DNA from: a bacterium
Lineage (GTDB): Bacteria; CSSED10-310; JAJRTK01
Direction: 5' to 3'
Length of the DNA stretch: 14,226 nucleotides
NCBI GenBank assembly: GCA_024278345.1
Contig: JAJRTK010000348.1
Location: 1 to 14,226 of the forward strand
Shown: in pieces, positions 1-14,207 of the stretch
Layout of the letters: every line of letters begins with the position of its first letter
How positions within the stretch are numbered: position 1 is the first letter of the stretch
Program-made: the position numbers and the translations under genes
The notes under the pieces: generated by a model
Databases searched by the model: none
What the model was told of the DNA's origin: nothing
Seen by the model: only the letters and a program-made list of their open reading frames with translations

Positions 1-3000
1 CAGTCGAAAGTTCGGGAAAAGGCTCCCCGCTTGCCGCCCAGGAGCCGGTGGAGGCCAAATCCAGTGGCTCCCAGCAAGAGTTGGCTCTCCCGGGCCAGCT
101 CTCCGGCATCTTCCAAGGGTTTCACTCCGCCGTTTTCCCCGCAATCGGACTGCCGGCCGAGCTTCCTACAGGTAACAGGAGAGAGGTGATGCCGTTCTAG
201 CAGGACTGAGACCCTCTGGAGGAGCTCGTCGATGGCCCGGTGGGTGAGGGCCGTCACGGCGATCCGGAGCTCCGAGCCCGCCGCCTTCGCGTGCTGGAAG
301 AGGGCAATCAAGATCCAGGCCAACGTCCGGGTTTTGCCTGTTCCAGGGGGGCCATCGACGATTCCCAGCCGCTGCCGGAAGGGCAGCTCCAGAGCCTTTT
401 CCTGGGAAGCGTTGAGCCCATGGGTCGAAGCGTTTTTTTTGCACCAGCTCCGAACCCAATCCAGGTGGCGGGAAGGCGGTGGCGGAGGCGCATTCCCCGC
501 CAGGAGCGCCGTGGCTGTATGGTTCTCTTCTCCGGCCCGGCGAACCACCTGGAGAAGCTTTGGGGTGGTGAAGTCTTCGGGCTCTTCTTCCAGCGAATAG
601 AAAGCATGGCTGGCCGGCGCCAGGGAACCTTGGCGGGCACGGATGAAGAGTTGACGCGACGCCTGGTCGTGCCCGACGAGGATGACGGGGACTCCGGCTT
701 CGGGATTGCTGAAGCCCGCGGGCACGAGGCGGAGGAAATCTTGGCTCCGAAAGCGCGTGGGCCCTGGCGGAGCCTCGAAGAGGTGGAGAATCCGCCCCTC
801 GTCGTCGAGCTGCCGTCCCGCGACCTTCAGCGGTCCTAGAGCCCGAAAGCGCTCCACCCGCTCCTGGAGCGAAAGCTCCCGCAGCGCCAACAGATCCTGG
901 CGCCTCAGCCTCCGTTCCTTTTCCAAAAACTTCTGGTAGCTCGCCAAGGGGGCTTCTTCCGATTCATGGGGCTCTTTAGAGAAAGCCTCGTCATCGCCCT
1001 CCACGTGCATTGAGATCCAGTTCCAAATCTGGGGCAAGAGAGCCAGCACCGTTTTGATTCTGGAAGCGGGTTCGAGCTTTGGTTCAGCGGTGAAAAGGTG
1101 GTCTGGGGCAGGTGGCCCTGGATCCAACCCCAGAACCCGGCTCAGAGCGAAGAGCGAGAGAATGCCGGGGATCGGCAGGTAGAAATGCTCGTCCATCAGG
1201 CGCCGAAGATCGGTCATCCGGTGGAGCAGCTCAACCGCGCTCGGCTCCGCCACTTCATCCCAGGATCTCGCCGCCTCCGGTCCACCGAGAACGAAGATAT
1301 GAGGCCGACCGCATTCCCTCGCCATCTCCCACAGCATTTCGAGCCTGCGGGAAAACCCGAGCCGCCCTTCTCCATCCTTTTCCAAATTCCAGATCCATCT
1401 CCTGGCCTCCCCATCCACCGGAGAAAGCGCGATCCCCGCTACCAGAGGCCGAGAATCCACGGGATCGAAGAGGGCGTGAACGAAGATCGGCGTCGTAAGA
1501 TTGGAGGGAAAAGAGAGAGACCGGCCCATCCGAAGGCCGATCCGCCCTGTTTCCAGCGCCGTGAGACGAGCCAATATCCCGTCCCTTTCCGCTGGGGTGA
1601 AAAGCCTGGCCAGACTGCCTGGCGGCCCTCCAAATGTTGCCGCGGCAGATCCGGGATCCTCTGGCAAGCCGCCAACCTGAGACGATCCGCGGATCCCGCG
1701 CAACCCCTTTGCCGCCGCGGCGATGGAAACTAGGCCAAGACTCCGCAAACGAGCCACCTGGCTGGGGCGAAGGCCACGGACGAACTGGATCTCCTCCTTC
1801 CCGAGCGCTTCCCGGTAGCAGCCCGAAAAACAGGGACACCGGCCGCAGGGACGCGCTATCCTCCATTGGGCGGAATCCACTGAGCGGCGGATAACCCTGG
1901 CCATTCCCCGAAGAAGGTCGGGGAAAACCGAAAAATAGGGCGCAAGCTGGAACCGCTCAACCCGCGGCCCTTTCCCGGTAGACTCGAACCGGAGCCACAA
2001 ACCACCAGTCTCCGAAACCTCGGCGCTGCCCACCGATTCCCTCTCCAGAACCCGCCCCAAAAGCGCGGCATAGAAGGCCACCTGCCAGCGGTGAGAATAA
2101 CGGGAGACCGGCGAATCCTTGATGTCCACGACCTCAATCCTCATGCCACCGGAACCGGGAAGGGGCTCCACCACAATCAGGTCCGGAATCCCCACAGCCG
2201 GCAGCTCCACCTCTTTCGCCATGAAGTCGATTCGGGTTGTGTTCCGCTCGGGCCGCTCGCAGCCGCTCCCGTCCCTCGCCAGGAAACGCCCCTCACCCAG
2301 GCCCGCACCCAAGGTGCGGAAGAGGAGAGAAGATGGTGTCTGTCGGTCGCCGGATTCACCGGAAATTCCGGCCAAAATCTCCGGATCCGCTCCCAAATCC
2401 CCGGCATTTCCAGGCGGGTATCCACGCAAGGCGGGACATTCCTGGGACTGTGGAATCGCAAGCGTCCGGGGAGCACGCTCATCTTCCCGTTGCAACGAAG
2501 GGCAACGGGATCCCTGCCCACGTTTTTGTACGCTGCGCCTCTTTTTTTGGTTTTGTTGCGTGTCCCGGCTTGAGTGGATACTCTTTCCAGGGGATTCCTT
2601 CGGAGCCGCTTCCTGGGCATCTCCGGCCAGGCCGCCATCAGAGTTTGCCGGAGCCGCGGCCCAGCACTCCAGGAGATCCGGAGCCGTCAGGACCGGATGG
2701 ATCAGGAAGCGGAACGAGCCTTCGCGGATCGCTTCCCGGATCTGGCCCAAAGTCTCCCGGGAGCGTTCTTCGATGGAACGGGGTCTTCCGGATTTGGTGG
2801 TTTCCGCGATCTCCACGACTCGTTTCCCGGTCTCCCGGAGCCAGTCCAGAACCCTGGCTTCGTGTGCCCGTCCCGCCTCCATCCGCCGAGGGGAGAGGGG
2901 ATCGTCCGGTAGCCCTGTCCGGGCGGGTCGCAACTGGAGCGGCAGCGTCTGGTACTTCAACCATCGCTCGCATTGGCGAAGCCCGATGAATCGCCCGATC

Positions 3001-5474
3001 CGGGTTCCCGTGAGGGTCAGATGGTGAGTTTTCGCCCTCGGATCGGCGGGTAGGGCGACGTTTCTTTCCGGCGCCATCTCCGCTGTGGGAGCTTGCGCCC
3101 CGTTTCTCTCGATCCTTGCCCCATTGGTTGCCGTTCCCATCACCCCCCAGCGCCGTTTCTCCCATTCCAGAAGGGAAACTGGCGCTACCGGCGCGGCGGG
3201 ATCTCGTGTTGTTTCGGCACGGGCTTTCCCCGGTGCCAGGCCCGCCGCGGCCTCGATGGTGCCACCGCCCGCGGCGGATTCCAGTCCCGGCGCCGCCAGC
3301 CAATGGCTGTGTGCCGCCTTCAGTTGATCTCGCGTCAGTTGCTTCAGCAGTTCGGTTGGATCTTTGGTAGACCCACGCCGAATCCTGGCGAAGGCCTCGA
3401 GGACTCTTGGGTCATAGAGGAAATCCGCGACCTCGGAAACCAGAAGAGATCGCGGAAGAGCGGCGGCGAATGAATTGAGCGGCAAGGAGGGAAGCAGCGT
3501 CTGGAGGCGTCGGCTCACCCAGCTTTCCAGCTCCGTCCGGGTGCGAGGGATATCGAGCCTGTGAAAATCGATCCAGTCGGAAAGCTCGATCCCGATTTCG
3601 TCCCAAACCGGCCGCGGAACCGCCGAGGACCGAAATTGCTCCGCCACCGCCTGGCTTAGAAGCATGTTCCCCGTGGAGCCAAGAAAAGTCATGATGCGAA
3701 AATCGCCCGACTCCGCCAAAACCAGTTCGATCCCGTTTCCCAGCTCGACCCTTCCCTTGAACCGCTCTCTCTCTTGGCGCCAAAGCCGGAGCGGTCGCCG
3801 GAACAAACCAAATTCGGGGCCGGCAAGCTCCGCTTCATCCATCTTCAGAACAGCGGCCATTTCTTGGGCGACCTCGTGGGAAACCCGGCCTCCGCTTCCG
3901 ATCCAAACGACTTCATCAGGCTCTTCATCTCTGCCGAGAGTCTCCGCCAAAACCCGTCGTCGCGGGCCAGGATCGATCTCCAGAATCCGAAGGCGCCGGC
4001 CCGCAAGGCGAACCCGATCCCCCACGTTGAGCTGTTTCACCAGGAGCGGCGGCAATTCGGCCACCGCCTTTTGGTTCACCTCCAGAGTCAACGGCTCCCC
4101 CGTGTCGGGAAAATTGCTCCAGATCCGCCGCTCCATCAGGGCGTCCCGGTATCGCCAACTTCCCCGGAGCAAAGGCCGGAGATGAGCCGGCCGCAACCAC
4201 CGAAGCCGGATCATCTTGGGGATCAGCCGGGACAACGTCTTCGCTTGGTCGCAAAAGAGTCCCTGGAGGGCCGAAAGAGAGATCTGCCGGTGCTCGTAAA
4301 GGCAGGAGACGGCCTGTTGCGCCAGAACACTGGGCAGCTCCCGAGACGGCGGCTCCTCCACCTTCCCGGCCCTGGCCAGACGGAGAAGCGCCAAAAAACG
4401 GACCACTTGCGGGCCGGCTCTTCGGCCACGGCAGACGCCCCAAAAACGTGTCGTTTCCTGGCGCCGGTTTGCCCGGCCGATCCGTTGCAGGAAGGCCGAA
4501 ACCGTGTCCGGCGGCTCGTAGAGCACCACGGCATCGACATCCCCGATATCGATTCCCAGCTCCAGAGTACTCGTCGCAACGCAGATCGCCCTCCGGCGCT
4601 CGCGAAAGCGAGCCTCGATCCTCTTTCGTTCCAGCGGTTTGAGGTTCGAGTAGTGGAGATCGACGCGGCCGCGAAACGGTTCGGCTCTGCCCAGGAGGTC
4701 CACCAGCAGGTCACAGGTTCGGCGGGTATTGGTGAAGACCAGCAGCTTGTTGTGGCCGAACCGCTCGTGGAGATCCCGGGCGAACGCCATGGTTTCGCCC
4801 TCGTTCCCAAGATGCACCAGACGGGGCTCGATTTTTCGGCCCACCGGCTCCAGGATCTGGATGGCATCGGCGCGAAATCCAAAAAAGTCCAGGACCCTCG
4901 CCGGGGAGGCGATGGTGGCCGACAGCCCGATCCTCTGGAGGCGTTCGCTCCGCCGTTCCAACCGGGTCAGAACATAGGTGAGCTGTTTTCCCCGGTACTC
5001 CTGGAGCAGCGGATGGATTTCGTCGAGGATCACCGCGCGGGCACGGGTCAGCGCGGCCCGCAGCTCTTTGTTGCGGCTTCCCACGGCGATGTCCAGGGAC
5101 TCGGGAGTTGTCAGGAGCATATCGGGTGCGGCGCCGCCGCTTTTCTTGATGTCGCCGGTCCGCACCGCCAGAGAAAGCTCCAGCCGCTGAAACACCGGCT
5201 CCAGCCGGCGGAGCAGGTCCAGGGCCAAGGCTCGCGTGGGGACGACGTAGATCGCCGTCCGTCCGCGACCGGACGCCAAGATCCGTTCCAACACGGGCGC
5301 CAATACGGCCTCGGTCTTCCCGGAACCGGTGGCCGACTGGCAGAGGAGGTCTTCCCCGGCCAGGACCGGCTCGATAACCTGGCGCTGGATGGGCCGCAGC
5401 GCCTGGAACCGCCCGTAGAAGGCGCGATAGGTGTTGGGCAGAAGCAGTAGAGGGGAAACGGGAGTGGGGGGCAT
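1..5474 (-). CDS. Giant SF2 helicase - RecB/Cas4-like nuclease - SF1 helicase fusion (3' end outside window)
   Basis: The reading frame is open from ATG 5474 to the left edge (at least 1824 codons, no stop); the C-terminus is missing. Residues 24-60 hold a Q-motif (RPIQRQ) and Walker A ATGSGKT (K53). DEIH is at 151-154, LSAT at 184-187, TSTLELGIDIG at 301-311 and QRIGRANR at 330-337, followed by a winged-helix/beta-barrel region ('RLAGRRLRILEID'): an Lhr-like SF2 helicase. After a low-complexity linker (about 730-825) comes a Cas4/AddB-like PD-(D/E)XK nuclease: C835, H871, GIPDLIV (D1098), VVDIK (D1117, K1119), QVAFY (Q1131, Y1135) and CGRCPCFSGC (C1210, C1213, C1215, C1219), which fits a 4Fe-4S set with C835. 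Residues 1325-1430 look like the YprB/TM0106 RNase H fold but lack the first D-x-E. LNASQ (1687-1691) and GPPGTGKT (1708-1715) open an SF1 AAA_11-type helicase. The last three modules match TM0106-family layout. A MITE sits at residues about 964-1020. The start is chosen for the Q-motif spacing and a weak GGAG upstream; GTG 5486 is an alternative. Role: DNA unwinding plus nuclease; a defence or repair role is inferred. Confidence 0.9.
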   Translation of the reverse strand, partial: MPPTPVSPLLLLPNTYRAFYGRFQALRPIQRQVIEPVLAGEDLLCQSATGSGKTEAVLAPVLERILASGRGRTAIYVVPTRALALDLLRRLEPVFQRLELSLAVRTGDIKKSGGAAPDMLLTTPESLDIAVGSRNKELRAALTRARAVILDEIHPLLQEYRGKQLTYVLTRLERRSERLQRIGLSATIASPARVLDFFGFRADAIQILEPVGRKIEPRLVHLGNEGETMAFARDLHERFGHNKLLVFTNTRRTCDLLVDLLGRAEPFRGRVDLHYSNLKPLERKRIEARFRERRRAICVATSTLELGIDIGDVDAVVLYEPPDTVSAFLQRIGRANRRQETTRFWGVCRGRRAGPQVVRFLALLRLARAGKVEEPPSRELPSVLAQQAVSCLYEHRQISLSALQGLFCDQAKTLSRLIPKMIRLRWLRPAHLRPLLRGSWRYRDALMERRIWSNFPDTGEPLTLEVNQKAVAELPPLLVKQLNVGDRVRLAGRRLRILEIDPGPRRRVLAETLGRDEEPDEVVWIGSGGRVSHEVAQEMAAVLKMDEAELAGPEFGLFRRPLRLWRQERERFKGRVELGNGIELVLAESGDFRIMTFLGSTGNMLLSQAVAEQFRSSAVPRPVWDEIGIELSDWIDFHRLDIPRTRTELESWVSRRLQTLLPSLPLNSFAAALPRSLLVSEVADFLYDPRVLEAFARIRRGSTKDPTELLKQLTRDQLKAAHSHWLAAPGLESAAGGGTIEAAAGLAPGKARAETTRDPAAPVAPVSLLEWEKRRWGVMGTATNGARIERNGAQAPTAEMAPERNVALPADPRAKTHHLTLTGTRIGRFIGLRQCERWLKYQTLPLQLRPARTGLPDDPLSPRRMEAGRAHEARVLDWLRETGKRVVEIAETTKSGRPRSIEERSRETLGQIREAIREGSFRFLIHPVLTAPDLLECWAAAPANSDGGLAGDAQEAAPKESPGKSIHSSRDTQQNQKKRRSVQKRGQGSRCPSLQREDERAPRTLAIPQSQECPALRGYPPGNAGDLGADPEILAGISGESGDRQTPSSLLFRTLGAGLGEGRFLARDGSGCERPERNTTRIDFMAKEVELPAVGIPDLIVVEPLPGSGGMRIEVVDIKDSPVSRYSHRWQVAFYAALLGRVLERESVGSAEVSETGGLWLRFESTGKGPRVERFQLAPYFSVFPDLLRGMARVIRRSVDSAQWRIARPCGRCPCFSGCYREALGKEEIQFVRGLRPSQVARLRSLGLVSIAAAAKGLRGIRGSSQVGGLPEDPGSAAATFGGPPGSLARLFTPAERDGILARLTALETGRIGLRMGRSLSFPSNLTTPIFVHALFDPVDSRPLVAGIALSPVDGEARRWIWNLEKDGEGRLGFSRRLEMLWEMARECGRPHIFVLGGPEAARSWDEVAEPSAVELLHRMTDLRRLMDEHFYLPIPGILSLFALSRVLGLDPGPPAPDHLFTAEPKLEPASRIKTVLALLPQIWNWISMHVEGDDEAFSKEPHESEEAPLASYQKFLEKERRLRRQDLLALRELSLQERVERFRALGPLKVAGRQLDDEGRILHLFEAPPGPTRFRSQDFLRLVPAGFSNPEAGVPVILVGHDQASRQLFIRARQGSLAPASHAFYSLEEEPEDFTTPKLLQVVRRAGEENHTATALLAGNAPPPPPSRHLDWVRSWCKKNASTHGLNASQEKALELPFRQRLGIVDGPPGTGKTRTLAWILIALFQHAKAAGSELRIAVTALTHRAIDELLQRVSVLLERHHLSPVTCRKLGRQSDCGENGGVKPLEDAGELARESQLLLGATGFGLHRLLGGKRGAFSRTFD
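2415..2583. mobile_element. MITE-like element copy 1, inserted in-frame inside the helicase-nuclease gene
   Basis: Imperfect 23-bp terminal inverted repeats at 2416-2438 and 2561-2583 (20 of 23 matching; left end GGGTATCCACGC) bound about 168 bp. The interior has a 7-bp-stem hairpin (CCGTTGC/GCAACGG, about 2489-2511) and the motif CCCACGTTTTTGTACGCTGC. Outside the ends, TTTCCAGG occurs at 2407-2414 and again at 2584-2591, which looks like an 8-9-bp target-site duplication. Element plus duplication is 177 bp, exactly 59 codons, and no stop occurs in the host gene's frame. It encodes no protein of its own and is presumably moved by a transposase elsewhere. It is a shorter relative of 10729-10991, lacking about 95 bp from the middle. 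Confidence 0.85.
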
Positions 5475-5634
5475 GGCCGGAGTCACTCCGATCTTGGGCC
5501 AACCGATGGAAAGAGGGGCGAAGATGGCGAGTGGCGGCGGACGGATTGCCGCCGCCGGGAGCGGAACGTAACACGCTGATAAGAAAGAGGTGTCCGGAAT
5601 CTCTGTCCAGGATCTCTCCCGTCATCACCGATGG
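5475..5634 (-). other. Intergenic spacer with strong GC hairpin before the helicase-nuclease gene
   Basis: This 160-nt gap interrupts an otherwise overlapping operon. It contains an 8-bp perfect stem, 5533-5540 with 5549-5556 (GGCGGCGG / CCGCCGCC, 8-nt loop). No T-tract follows it on the minus strand, so it is not a convincing intrinsic terminator. It could be a 5'-leader structure or an RNA-processing site limiting expression of the giant gene. The helicase frame is also open through this gap up to a stop at 5622-5624, so an unusual upstream start cannot be fully excluded. Confidence 0.4.
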
Positions 5635-6885
5635 TCAAAGAGGTCTGCTCCGGAAAACCCGTTCTTGGTGAAGGAGGTCCAAATGCTCCACGAGGGCCTT
5701 GAAAACGGAGCGCGTTTCTTGTCCGAACAGCTCGTATGCCCTTGCCGCCAGATCTTTCCCCGTCCCGGACGGAGGCGTCCAGCCGTAGGCACGACCGTGG
5801 AGATCCGTGAGCTTGTCCGAAAGCTCCTTCCAGTGGCGCCGCGACAACTCCTCCGGTGCGTGGCGCTCAAGCCCCCGCCAGCATTGGGACCAATCGGCTG
5901 AAAAGTAGGGGCTTTCTTCACCTCGCCGAACCCGGATCCTTTGATAATCCTCCGCCTCCAAGCGCCGGAAGAACTCACCGGTGAAGGCGAAGACCGAAAA
6001 AAGACCGGGGCTCACGTCGGGCGGACGAAAGAAGAGGTCCAGCGTCTCGTAGCTCTTGTTCCGCTGAACGATACGCGCCTGGAGGATCGATTCCCCTTCG
6101 TCGAACAAGAGCGCCAGGCCGCCATACGCCATTCGCTGGAACAGTTTTCCCAGAGCCGCCAGCATTCGCACGTACGGCTCGTTTCCAAGAAGGCGCAAAG
6201 ACCTGATCCCGGAGAGATCCACGCCCCGCTCCCGAATCACCCGCCGCAGCGTGGTCACGGGAACCGCTTCCCCCAGGAGCGCCCGGCGAAGCAGAAGCTG
6301 AGATGCCCCGTGCCGAAGCCCATGCATTCTCCGCCGGGATTCAGACAGCGCACGACTCGCCATGGCCGCCATGGTCGTTCGGAAGAGAGGAGGCATTTCC
6401 CTGGGCAAATGAGCCATCACCCGCCCGGGAAGCGGATTCTTCAACTTTTTTTTCACCCACTCCTCCCAGCGGGCCGCCAGGGAGGCCGAACTATCTGGAA
6501 AACGAAGATTCTCCATCAACCCCCGGTAGATTCCCCGGAAATTGTGGAAGGGCCGCTCCCGTGGATCCAGATCCACCATGCTCGTGACGAAACCCGCCTG
6601 GTGCGCTCTGGCCCGGATGTAACTCAGGGTGTGGGACTTGCCCCGCCCATAGGCTCCCACGATGCAGAGATTCGCGCCTTTGCCCGCCGCCCGGGAAAGC
6701 CCGATGTCCGCAACCTTCCGGATCCGCGCTGCGCGGGCTGTCAGGCGGAGCACCGCCAGGGGATCGAACAGACCGTCCCGCAATCGCTCCACGGCCCGCC
6801 GCAGCTCGAACTCCGAAGGCCTGGAACCCCTTGAAGCCGGCGCCAGGGGATAGGCCAGCCCGCGATTTCCGGAGCCTCTCCTCAT
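5635..6885 (-). CDS. P-loop ATPase, BrxC/BrxD (DUF2791)-like, second paralogue, 416 aa
   Basis: A cytoplasmic NTPase with Walker A GAYGRGKSH at residues 77-85 (K83) and Walker B 'GGLALLFDEGES' at about 255-266 (D262, E263). The same G-x-Y-G-x-G-K-[ST]-H loop and an acidic LL(F)DE box occur in the neighbouring 428-aa ATPase, so the two look like divergent paralogues. The remainder is mostly helical with many Arg residues and no membrane segment. The start is ATG 6885, which overlaps the upstream TGA by 4 nt (ATGA), implying translational coupling. Longer upstream extensions of the frame would lie inside the upstream ATPase gene. It ends at TGA 5635-5637, 160 nt before the helicase-nuclease start. 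BrxC/BrxD-type proteins act with Lhr-type helicases in BREX-related loci. A role in loading or controlling the helicase-nuclease is inference; the substrate is unknown. Confidence 0.82.
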   Translation of the reverse strand: MRRGSGNRGLAYPLAPASRGSRPSEFELRRAVERLRDGLFDPLAVLRLTARAARIRKVADIGLSRAAGKGANLCIVGAYGRGKSHTLSYIRARAHQAGFVTSMVDLDPRERPFHNFRGIYRGLMENLRFPDSSASLAARWEEWVKKKLKNPLPGRVMAHLPREMPPLFRTTMAAMASRALSESRRRMHGLRHGASQLLLRRALLGEAVPVTTLRRVIRERGVDLSGIRSLRLLGNEPYVRMLAALGKLFQRMAYGGLALLFDEGESILQARIVQRNKSYETLDLFFRPPDVSPGLFSVFAFTGEFFRRLEAEDYQRIRVRRGEESPYFSADWSQCWRGLERHAPEELSRRHWKELSDKLTDLHGRAYGWTPPSGTGKDLAARAYELFGQETRSVFKALVEHLDLLHQERVFRSRPL

Positions 6886-8168
6886 TGGTCCCACCGGGGC
6901 TCGAACTGTTCCGCCTTTTCCTGCTCCACCTCCTGCTGGCTGGTCACCAGGTGTTCCGCCAAATCCACCTCTTCCAGGGAAGTTTCTCCTTGTTCCGCCA
7001 CGTCCAGCAGGCGGATCACCTGCTTGACGAAGAGGCGCGTCTCGCTGAGGAGGCCCATCTTTTGTTGGTTGGCGCAGAGCTCCTTCAAGAGGGTCGGACC
7101 CACGAGATCTTTTGCGTCCCATCGGTAGGCCCGTTCATGGATCGTGCAGAGCCGCCGGCCCAACTCCACAAGTTCCGGCGTTGCCAAGGGGGTCCTGTGG
7201 AGGTCGATGAGAACGCTTCGATAGTTGAGGCGCTGGCTCGTCCCAAGGGATCGGACGCGGCTCCAGAGGGCGTCGTACGACTTGAATCCCTTTTCCGACA
7301 GCAGCACCTCGGGAATGATGGAGAAGAAGACGTGCAAGGTGCCGGCCTGCTCGCTATTGTCGATAAGAAGGCGGACATTTTCATAGGCTGCGTTGCGCAT
7401 GGTTTTCGATTGGGCGATGACGGTCTCGAGCTCGTCCAACAAGAGCACGAGGCCCCTGTGTCCAAAATGGCGCAACAGTGCTACCAGCGAGGCCAAGAAC
7501 CGCTTGCTGTTGTTCTTGTTCAGCGTTTCATAGATCTGGAACGGCTTGAGATCCCGCTTGCTAAGACGCATCCCTTCAAGCCACAGGTAGAGCTGTTCTT
7601 CGGCTTGTTGCCGATCCTCCGGGGATTCGCCCTCCTTCTCCGCCCCATACCGGAGCTCCGCCAGCGACACCAGCGCATTGGCGAAATTGATGTCGAGTTT
7701 CTCGATTCCCCGGAGTTCCCGGGCCAAGGCCGCAAACTTCTCCTCGGCCTCCTCCTTCATCCTTTCGGACAAGCCGGCCAACCAGCTCTCTACCATGGCC
7801 CGAATCCCCGTGCCTTCGAACTTCCCCCGAAGCTGTCGGACCAGCTCCTGGTACACCTGCTCGAACCGGTGGATGGGCGTCTCCCGGGTCAGCACCACCA
7901 TGGAGACCGCGAAGCCCCGCGCCAGTGCCGTATGGCGGACGATGGACATGAAATGCGTCTTTCCGTCGCCGTAATCGCCATTGATGAAACGCACCTTGGC
8001 CCCGCCCTCGGCAATGTAGCTTTCCAGGTCGTCATCGATAAAGCGAAGCCACTTCTCCCGACCAACGCTGAAAAACTGCACGTGCTCGAACGGAACACTA
8101 CCCTTGCGAAGCGCCTCGATGATGGTCCGCGCTTCGTAGGCCACAAGATCTTCCAGATCCCGCTTCAC
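6882..8168 (-). CDS. BREX-type ATP-binding protein (DUF2791, BrxD-like), 428 aa
   Basis: A soluble P-loop ATPase. Walker A is FINGDYGDGKTHFM (about 61-74, K70, T71); Walker B is GLVLLLDELETVI (about 239-251, D245, E246). A charged helical insert (about 130-200) lies between them, and 'FFSIIPEVL' follows Walker B. This layout and the G-x-Y-G-x-G-K-T-H loop are characteristic of the DUF2791 BrxC/BrxD family, which in type 2 BREX sits beside an Lhr-like helicase (BrxHI). The start is GTG 8168, supported by GGGAGGTG about 6 nt upstream and a 4-nt GTGA overlap with the stop of the preceding gene. It ends in ATGA shared with the next ATPase. The length is close to single-domain BrxD proteins and much shorter than BrxC (over 1000 aa). 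What is seen: family motifs and coupling. What is inferred: cooperation with the second ATPase and the fused helicase. Confidence 0.85.
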   Translation of the reverse strand: MKRDLEDLVAYEARTIIEALRKGSVPFEHVQFFSVGREKWLRFIDDDLESYIAEGGAKVRFINGDYGDGKTHFMSIVRHTALARGFAVSMVVLTRETPIHRFEQVYQELVRQLRGKFEGTGIRAMVESWLAGLSERMKEEAEEKFAALARELRGIEKLDINFANALVSLAELRYGAEKEGESPEDRQQAEEQLYLWLEGMRLSKRDLKPFQIYETLNKNNSKRFLASLVALLRHFGHRGLVLLLDELETVIAQSKTMRNAAYENVRLLIDNSEQAGTLHVFFSIIPEVLLSEKGFKSYDALWSRVRSLGTSQRLNYRSVLIDLHRTPLATPELVELGRRLCTIHERAYRWDAKDLVGPTLLKELCANQQKMGLLSETRLFVKQVIRLLDVAEQGETSLEEVDLAEHLVTSQQEVEQEKAEQFEPRWDQ

Positions 8169-9004
8169 GAGTCACCTCCCTGGAAACTGATCCCCGCCAC
8201 CTTCCGCTTTTCCCCGTCCCGATCAATGAGCCATAACCCGCCACGCCCAGACCCGAAACGCAGAGCCGCGCCATTGGAGCTTTCAGCAATCCCGGCCTCA
8301 AAACAGCGCCACAGATCCACGGCAAATCGGGCCAGGGGGTAACCACGGAACTTCGACTTGTCCATGTCCTGGAAAAAAGTTTTCGCCTGAAGGGAAAGCA
8401 CATAGCCCCGGTAGAGGGCTTCCGCCGGCACGGCGTGTCCTTCCGGCCACACGTGCTGCTGGAGAAGGCTCTGGTACACCACGTAGAGTTGCTCGAGGAA
8501 GGCCCGAGGATCCAAAGGCCGATCATACAGATCCCGCTTCAGGCGCAAGAGCTCGGAAACAATCCGTCGCGGGTCGATGGACTTGATGCGCTTTTTGTTG
8601 ATGGTCGTGCGCCGTGCCCCAAAATCGACCTCCCCTTCGATGCCGCGAAGAGACTGGAAACGCGGGAAATCGAATTTAACGGGAAGCCCGGCCTCCTCAG
8701 CACGCTCGGCCACGTCTTCAATAAACTCCAGCCGGTACCGTTCCACCTTGGCGGCGGCATCGACCCGCAAGCGTTCGAAAAAGGATTTCAGTCCTTCAAG
8801 GCCAGCTTCTTCCTCGGCTTCCTTCGCCAGCTTGGAGCGGAGAAATTCATCGACTTGAATAAAGTCATCGCGCTTGAGGCTCCTGCCAAGGCGAGAAAAG
8901 AAGTCCGCCAACCGATTGCGGCGCCGGAGATCACGGGTGAACGGCAGAATCAGCTCCTTCAGGCCCGCTTGCAGTTCCTCAAAAACAGTTTCAGCGTCGC
9001 TCAT
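8165..9004 (-). CDS. Unrecognised helical protein, first gene of the ATPase/helicase-nuclease operon, 279 aa
   Basis: I do not recognise the family. The protein is soluble and highly charged. Its N-terminal half (about 1-110) is rich in Glu/Lys/Arg/Leu and predicted helical, possibly coiled coil (about 45-110). The middle (about 120-150) has 'EVDFGARRTTINKKR', followed by more helices and a short Gly/Ser-rich beta-like tail ending 'GISFQGGDS'. No catalytic motif, Cys cluster, signal peptide or membrane segment is visible, and the acidic pattern of a TerB domain was not evident. The start is ATG 9004, with AGGAG about 10 nt upstream and a sigma-70-type promoter 55-83 nt upstream. Its TGA overlaps the GTG of the ATPase gene, so production is tied to the ATPases in a fixed ratio. 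It may be a structural, adaptor or target-recognition subunit; this is context-based inference only. Confidence 0.75.
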   Translation of the reverse strand: MSDAETVFEELQAGLKELILPFTRDLRRRNRLADFFSRLGRSLKRDDFIQVDEFLRSKLAKEAEEEAGLEGLKSFFERLRVDAAAKVERYRLEFIEDVAERAEEAGLPVKFDFPRFQSLRGIEGEVDFGARRTTINKKRIKSIDPRRIVSELLRLKRDLYDRPLDPRAFLEQLYVVYQSLLQQHVWPEGHAVPAEALYRGYVLSLQAKTFFQDMDKSKFRGYPLARFAVDLWRCFEAGIAESSNGAALRFGSGRGGLWLIDRDGEKRKVAGISFQGGDS

Positions 9005-10262: not shown

Positions 10263-10704
10263 GAGAAGGCATAAAAATGAAGGAGTTGTAGAACCCGGAT
10301 ATCTCATCAAAAATCTGCTGCGGCGTCTGATCCATCGTCTCCACCGGCGTCTTCGTCGGTCGGACATCCTCGACGTAGTGCAAGACTACGCCTCCGGTGT
10401 CCGCCTCTCCCTCCTTGGTGGAAACGCGCCGCAGACTGCCTCGCGACGATCCTTGATGAGATATCCGGGTAGAAAAGACGGTCGTGCTCTTCTTTTAGGG
10501 CGGAGTTGTCGGCAAACCCTTTGTTTTCTTCGTGTTGCGTTCCGCTCACATCGGTTCGACCCGCGCCTGTGGCGCGAGTTCCCCGCGGCGCCCGCTGCTC
10601 GCCATTGTCGCCGCCTTCGCTCCATTGCCCTAGGGCTGGAGCACCACCAAGATTCCTGCGATCCCGGCAACCCGCTTTGCCCAAGCAATTTTTCTCGCTA
10701 TCAT
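10263..10704 (-). pseudogene. Possible decayed small secreted-protein gene (unrecognised)
   Basis: One minus-strand frame starts at ATG 10704 with a signal-peptide-like stretch ('MIARKIAWAKRV', then 'AGIAGILVVLQP') and stops at TAG after 24 codons. Two more stops (TGA, TAA) follow in the same frame. The frame is then open to TAA 10263, including 'VVLHYVEDVRP' and 'MDQTPQQIFDEISGFYNSF'. Three in-frame stops rule out an intact gene. The pieces look protein-like, but I cannot assign a family, and the C-terminal part overlaps the inverted-repeat element at 10293-10470. It could equally be chance open frame in GC-rich DNA. Confidence 0.2.
10293..10470. mobile_element. Small element bounded by perfect 18-bp inverted repeats
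   Basis: ACCCGGATATCTCATCAA at 10293-10310 is repeated exactly in inverted orientation at 10453-10470, enclosing a 178-bp unit. The interior (about 142 bp) has no convincing gene. No clear target duplication was found beside the ends. This is the structure expected of a miniature inverted-repeat element or a remnant of an insertion sequence; a long-armed regulatory structure is the alternative. Its ends are unrelated to those of the MITE at 10729-10991. Confidence 0.5.
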
Positions 10705-10728: not shown

Positions 10729-10991
10729 GGGTATCCACGCAAGGCGGGACATTCCCGGGACTGTGGAATCGCAAGCGTCCGGGCAACGCCTCGCTATCGC
10801 TCGGCGGGTCACGCCGCACGTTACCCGTAGGTGGTCCGGGGATTCCATCCCCTGGCAGGGCTTCGCCCTGCACCCACCAGGGAGCGTGCAAGGACCCGTT
10901 GCAATGAAAAGCAACGAGTTCCCCACCCACGTTTTTGTACGCTACGCGTTTTCCTTTTTTTTCTGTTCTGTCCCGCCTTGCGTGGATACCC
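10729..10991. mobile_element. MITE-like element copy 2 with perfect 23-bp terminal inverted repeats
   Basis: The ends at 10729-10751 and 10969-10991 are perfect inverted repeats (starting GGGTATCCACGC). The flanks TATCAAGC (10721-10728) and TATTAAGC (10992-10999) match at 7 of 8 positions, consistent with an aged 8-bp target-site duplication. The first ~60 bp and last ~100 bp match the copy inside the helicase-nuclease gene. The extra middle contains triloop hairpins (GGGGAT-TCC-ATCCCC near 10838-10852; CAGGG-CTTCG-CCCTG near 10856-10870). The right part has a GTTGC/GCAAC hairpin, CCCACGTTTTTGTACGCTAC and T-runs. It has no coding capacity of its own. The transposase family is undetermined; an 8-9-bp duplication restricts the choice. 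Confidence 0.88.
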
Positions 10992-12240: not shown

Positions 12241-12326
12241 AAGCTTGGTTTGACAGCGATGATAGGCGAGTGGCGGCGGCCGGATGGACGCTGCCGCGAG
12301 TGGAACACAACCCAAGTTCGCATCCC

Positions 12327-14006: not shown

Positions 14007-14207
14007 GGCCTCGGTCATGGTACCGGCCACGGTGCAGATTTCAGACGCCGCGCCAGGGCTTCCAGCCCTGGAACCCGGCGGAGGCTCCGCCTCCGGACCT
14101 CCGCTGGGAGCGCCGCTCCCAGACCCACGCCAGGGAGCTGGCTCCCTGGACCCACATCTTTGTGCGCTGCGCGCTTTTTTCGGGTGGCCGGTACCATGAC
14201 CGAGGCC
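14007..14207. mobile_element. 201-bp hairpin-rich element with perfect 24-bp inverted repeats
   Basis: Arms at 14007-14030 and 14184-14207 are perfect inverted repeats (left arm begins GGCCTCGGTCATGG). Between them are four successive short-loop hairpins: 14053-14071 (CCAGGGCT-TCC-AGCCCTGG), 14077-14091 (GGCGGA/TCCGCC), 14105-14121 (TGGGAGC/GCTCCCA) and 14130-14149 (CCAGGGAGC/GCTCCCTGG). Next comes CCCACATCTTTGTGCGCTGC and a T6 run, clearly related to the motif in both MITEs. It begins 4 nt after the activator stop. It is probably a non-autonomous element; it may also serve as the activator's transcription terminator. Confidence 0.7.
14130..14180 (+). terminator. Possible terminator of the activator gene within the hairpin element
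   Basis: A 9-bp stem with a 2-nt gap (14130-14149) is followed at 14164-14174 by a small GCGC-TGC-GCGC stem running directly into TTTTTT (14175-14180). The strong hairpin is too far from the T-run to act alone, and the proximal stem is short, so efficiency is uncertain. Confidence 0.35.

Follow-up and report, generated by a model that had tools for sequence, protein, structure and literature searches.

The locus described here raises the question of how a small mobile element came to lie within the coding sequence of a nuclease, and whether the interrupted gene still specifies one continuous protein. The window, i.e., the whole stretch of DNA analyzed (14,226 bp), was the entire contig C278 of a genome of 6.06 Mb in 550 contigs. 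The nearest relatives of this genome among those compared shared only its phylum. The features of the window that bear on the question were the following.

3–5486, minus strand: host gene, encoding a BrxHI/SngC-like DEAD helicase with a PD-(D/E)XK nuclease and an SF1-type helicase
2233–2281, no strand assigned: a further short interspersed repeat of about 48 bp, unrelated to the MITE and likewise in frame within the nuclease loop that holds it
2407–2414, no strand assigned: left copy of the target-site duplication (TSD), TTTCCAGG, from the sequence
2415–2583, plus strand: MITE copy with an internal deletion, from sequence comparison
2459–2480, plus strand: deletion junction CAAGCGTCCGGGGAGCACGCTC, found once in the assembly
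2584–2591, no strand assigned: right copy of the TSD, TTTCCAGG, from the sequence
10729–10991, plus strand: full-length MITE copy outside the host gene, with 23-bp perfect inverted ends and an imperfect 8-bp TSD

The first-pass annotation had described a MITE with a TSD at 2407–2591, and these coordinates were reproduced exactly: TTTCCAGG occurred at 2407–2414 and again at 2584–2591, with 169 bp of element between the two duplications. The would-be ninth base of the TSD was mismatched (C at 2415 versus G at 2592). The left end of the element, GGGTATCCACGCAAGGCGGGACA, was intact at 2416–2438, and its right end had diverged. Compared with the copy at 10729–10991, which is flanked by TATCAAGC and TATTAAGC, the left 60 bp of the element were 97% identical and 68 bp of its right part were 79% identical. 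An inner segment present in the usual copies of 265–266 bp was absent; the inner loss reported earlier is present, its measured size being 97–98 bp rather than about 95 bp. Judged by its sequence, 2415–2583 is a MITE insertion with a target-site duplication in one gene.

The 23-bp terminus, with no more than three mismatches, occurred at 413 sites in the 6.06 Mb, and the reversed control at none. Statistics for the family come from about 1.3 Mb of the 6.06 Mb, a sample whose selection was guided in part by copy content. In this sample, TSDs of 7–9 bp, mostly perfect ones of 8 or 9 bp, were found in 28 of the 50 full-length copies with both flanks. The lengths of single copies ranged from 168 to 303 bp, and the copies were modular, with inner hairpins and a 23-bp unit variably present. 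By folding, the element can form a long hairpin. No frame in the 245-bp consensus exceeded 81 codons, and the element had no transposase of its own. Short length, terminal inverted repeats, a near-fixed TSD, high copy number and the lack of a transposase are all features of a MITE, and the inverted ends, the duplications and the 413-site family upheld the original identification. No autonomous element with the same ends GGGTATCCACGCAAGGCGGGACA was recognized in the 1.3-Mb sample, and the assembly may miss multicopy elements. An IS-like element at L189:551–1787 is inserted in a MITE copy, and its 363-codon ORF had no Pfam match; this IS-like element was rejected as the source of transposase given that it has ends of its own (CAGGTTCTACCGGATTTAGTGGT). 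The exact terminus had no match in 84,980 species genomes, and the consensus had none in 386 genomes beyond a chance-like match of 31 bp. Thus, as far as these searches reach, the family appears private to this lineage.

Other repeats were also abundant in the window. At 14007–14207 lies a different high-copy MITE family; its ends, GGCCTCGGTCATGGTACCGGCCAC, are 24 bp long, its core is similarly rich in hairpins, and many contigs end within this repeat. Further high-copy repeats were located at 5484–5591, 10291–10659 and 12242–12319, with as many as 96 matches across the sample.

The host gene is cut by the contig end. Its protein gave a PDDEXK_1 profile match beside the insert, and alignment with homologues showed that the ORF retains the helicase motifs as well as the DIK and C-C-C motifs of the nuclease. 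Two genes for BrxD/SngB-like ATPases adjoin it. Together with a gene whose 279-residue product had no Pfam match, these genes occupy positions 3–9004 of the minus strand, and the cluster is likely a defence-type operon.

Three other genomes and two plasmids yielded homologues of the host protein, and there were further partial ones; those compared were from G123, G370, G104, Skermanella, Azospirillum and G064. A homologue scan with conserved peptides gave no matches. In the alignment of the homologues, a short link joins the first nuclease motif to GxPDL; at this place the present protein has an expansion of about 140 residues, of which the element accounts for 59. The full-length homologue of G123 aligned to residues 8–710 and 1099–1828 of the host protein. 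The expectation that orthologues would lack the 59 residues was therefore confirmed for the homologues from other genomes. Within the nuclease domain, the insert lies in a loop that has the first conserved histidine on one side and the GIPDL motif on the other. These are the motifs named in the first-pass annotation, although the residue numbers given there were off by a few (the histidine is at about 930 with a GTG start). The unrelated repeat at 2233–2281 had at least eight other copies in the sample, one of which was in frame in a 1798-codon ORF of L144. Given that this repeat, too, keeps the frame within that expanded loop, the loop took at least two repeat insertions.

The element plus one TSD amounted to 177 bp. 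Read in the host frame, these are 59 stop-free codons, and the host ORF was 1814 codons long with the empty site and 1873 codons at present. The proposed in-frame addition of 59 codons, which would include those for the peptide stretch SVQKRGQGSRCPSLQR, was thereby substantiated. The left half of the copy matched many other copies equally well. Its right half was nearest to copies of 266 and 296 bp, which exceed it by 98 and 128 bp, respectively. Both differences are 2 mod 3, so that such a copy with the same TSD would break the frame. Thus, an internal deletion probably made this copy readable. Together with the unique junction, this renders plausible the earlier suggestion that the inner loss restored or keeps the frame; the loss may have come before or after insertion. 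The nuclease probably carries the insert as a tolerated loop, which we infer to be translated and to lie at the surface. A single-sequence structure model of the protein had a mean pLDDT of 37 and was too poor to use.

Similar to the nuclease gene, several other genes contained in-frame copies. At L139 (contig C512), a TSD-flanked copy was in frame in a 1397-codon kinase/ATPase/TPR ORF, with LEC on either side of the insert, and at L208 (C379) another was in frame in a 930-codon Omp85-type ORF, with DSA on either side. Decayed in-frame copies were identified in at least three more proteins: in the 1798-codon ORF of L144, which had two and in which Pfam aligned a single AMP-binding domain across one insert, in an exosortase linker (L121) and in a methyltransferase, between two CxxC pairs (L103). 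C199 and C546, where frames of 950 and 1076 codons, respectively, stay open, are candidates for further cases. Long ORFs spanning copies at L142, L098, L144 (8965–9267) and L091 were discounted, as the copy was upstream of the likely start. Likewise, an apparent frame break at L119 was set aside, as the copy was just upstream of the start of adenylosuccinate synthetase. No out-of-frame copy was seen in a clear gene body in the sample, although genes with such copies decay and are harder to recognize. Six of the seven in-frame copies in the sample, all but that of L121, were antisense to the host gene.

Window, 2415–2583, antisense to the host gene: MITE copy with an internal deletion
L139, 4075–4318, antisense: copy in the kinase/ATPase/TPR ORF
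L208, 3008–3206, antisense: copy in the Omp85-type ORF
L144, 1042–1291 and 2900–3076, antisense: the two copies in the 1798-codon ORF
L103, 5816–6019, antisense: copy in the methyltransferase gene

An antisense bias of in-frame copies is unproven with this small number. A terminator inside the element was considered as its cause and rejected, as no terminator was found.

For the position of copies relative to genes, empty-site ORFs replaced hexamer coding scores of the flanks, which were too weak for gene calls. Only 5 of the 28 copies with TSDs were interior to ORFs of at least 300 codons, compared with 67% of random positions, and 2 of these 5 were upstream of the likely start. The remaining TSD-flanked copies in gene bodies were open and in frame in 3 of 3 cases. 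The chance of this outcome was about 0.011 (0.222 cubed, for random strand, phase and length), for a small set chosen after looking. The depletion suggests that insertion avoids genes or, more likely, that most insertions into genes were removed. Given this depletion and the three open, in-frame copies, the in-frame copies would be the survivors of selection against gene-body insertions that shift or stop the frame.

Several other explanations were weighed against this one. If the host gene were a pseudogene or unexpressed, its frame would be open by luck and the insert would never be part of a working protein. The truncation of the gene by the contig end is compatible with this, as is the possibility that the deleted copy stems from a frame-shifting one. 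However, 1873 open codons, the intact helicase, DIK and C-C-C motifs relative to homologues and the same type of in-frame insert in several other proteins argue against it, and we consider it unlikely. Far less probable still is an assembly artefact in which a repeat caused the misjoining of two loci. The assembly often breaks at these repeats, leaving roughly 200 copies broken, and family termini are frequently less than 200 bp from contig ends, but here the TSDs match on both sides, the deletion junction is unique and the G123 homologue matches both flanks, indicating one gene and no misjoin. Equally far-fetched is that the protein lacks the insert, through its excision from the mRNA or through ribosomal bypassing. 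Although the long hairpin could bring the ends of the element together, keeping the frame and excluding stops would then be unnecessary, and no Rfam intron or other family match was found in the window.

The element might also be adapted to coding sequence, with selection on the element itself excluding stops, as proposed for Rickettsia palindromic elements (RPEs). Stop codons per copy in all six frames averaged 5.3, compared with 10.0 in dinucleotide shuffles, the open frames of six per copy were 2.9 versus 1.1, and the terminus was stop-free in every frame. Fewer stops would ease tolerated insertion. The case for selection is weakened, however, by shared descent, which makes the copies close to one observation, and by the hairpin-rich, GC-rich composition, which may itself account for the few stops. 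Moreover, there is no single conserved frame, as the reading frame differs between the inserts of L139, L208 and the window, and copies avoid gene bodies, a depletion that fits survivors of selection better than a gene-adapted element. We therefore regard such adaptation as rather improbable.

The first-pass annotation had likened the element to RPEs, which also colonize genes. RPEs are small palindromic repeats found in frame in conserved proteins, with no obvious host function (Ogata 2000, 2002, as cited in PMC10969869 and PMC2229807). They are 105–146 bp long, occur in Rickettsia and encode a conserved peptide, and their TSD is listed as uncertain (PMC10969869, PMC2229807). An RPE-bearing guanylate kinase was made and active, with altered substrate affinity (PMC2229807). 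Similar to RPEs, the present family is found in frame inside conserved proteins. Different from RPEs, its copies are 168–303 bp long with clear TSDs of 8–9 bp, and it encodes no conserved RPE-like peptide, given that different copies are read in different frames. Its host genome, at 6.06 Mb and 58% GC in the sample, is also unlike Rickettsia. The likeness fails for the colonizing of genes: nearly half of RPEs are in ORFs (PMC10969869), whereas the present copies are mostly outside gene bodies. By the features tested, and the autonomous partner aside, the family is a MITE and not an RPE.

ERIC/RU-1 and RU-2 of enterobacteria, of 127 and 168 bp, are MITE-like with open frames; some copies form in-frame fusions inside genes, and others are intergenic (Delihas 2007; PMC2759123). 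The present family shares this combination of in-frame fusions and copies between genes, but differs in hosts and lengths, the likeness being one of description. The Correia/NEMIS elements of Neisseria are high-copy MITEs with 24-bp inverted ends, a TSD and TA at the termini; a shorter form of 107 bp, which is open, occurs inside genes, and their 155-bp form contains stops and is almost only intergenic (PMC2229807). The 107-bp form is a close parallel to the deleted copy at 2415–2583, although hosts, lengths and the TA termini differ and no 8–9 bp duplication is described in that source (PMC2229807). In-frame MITE fusion is thus already established from RPE, ERIC/RU and Correia elements, and what is new is this lineage and family.

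The account that we consider very probable as a whole is as follows. A non-autonomous MITE of this genome transposed, as the sequence shows, into the nuclease loop with a target duplication of 8–9 bp. About 97–98 inner bases were lost, in place or before insertion, leaving 59 stop-free codons; insertion followed by later deletion would imply a temporarily broken gene, which counts against this account. Translation most likely continues through the insert, giving an additional loop that is probably disordered. The enzyme would tolerate it, given that homologues already differ in length there. Frame-breaking insertions into gene bodies would be purged, while in-frame ones survive.

In-frame insertion of small mobile elements is best known from Rickettsia, and these results extend it to a large genome without near relatives among those compared. 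Cases that look datable, with an intact element and TSD, stand alongside decayed ones and form a natural series. This series lets one ask how proteins absorb 60–80 random residues, and also bears on internal deletions that convert frame-breaking insertions into tolerated ones. A further reading, which we hold to be quite doubtful, is that the MITE has been kept poor in stops on both strands and that frame-restoring deletions turn it into new protein loops genome-wide. If that were true, mobile DNA would serve this organism as a genome-wide source of new protein segments.
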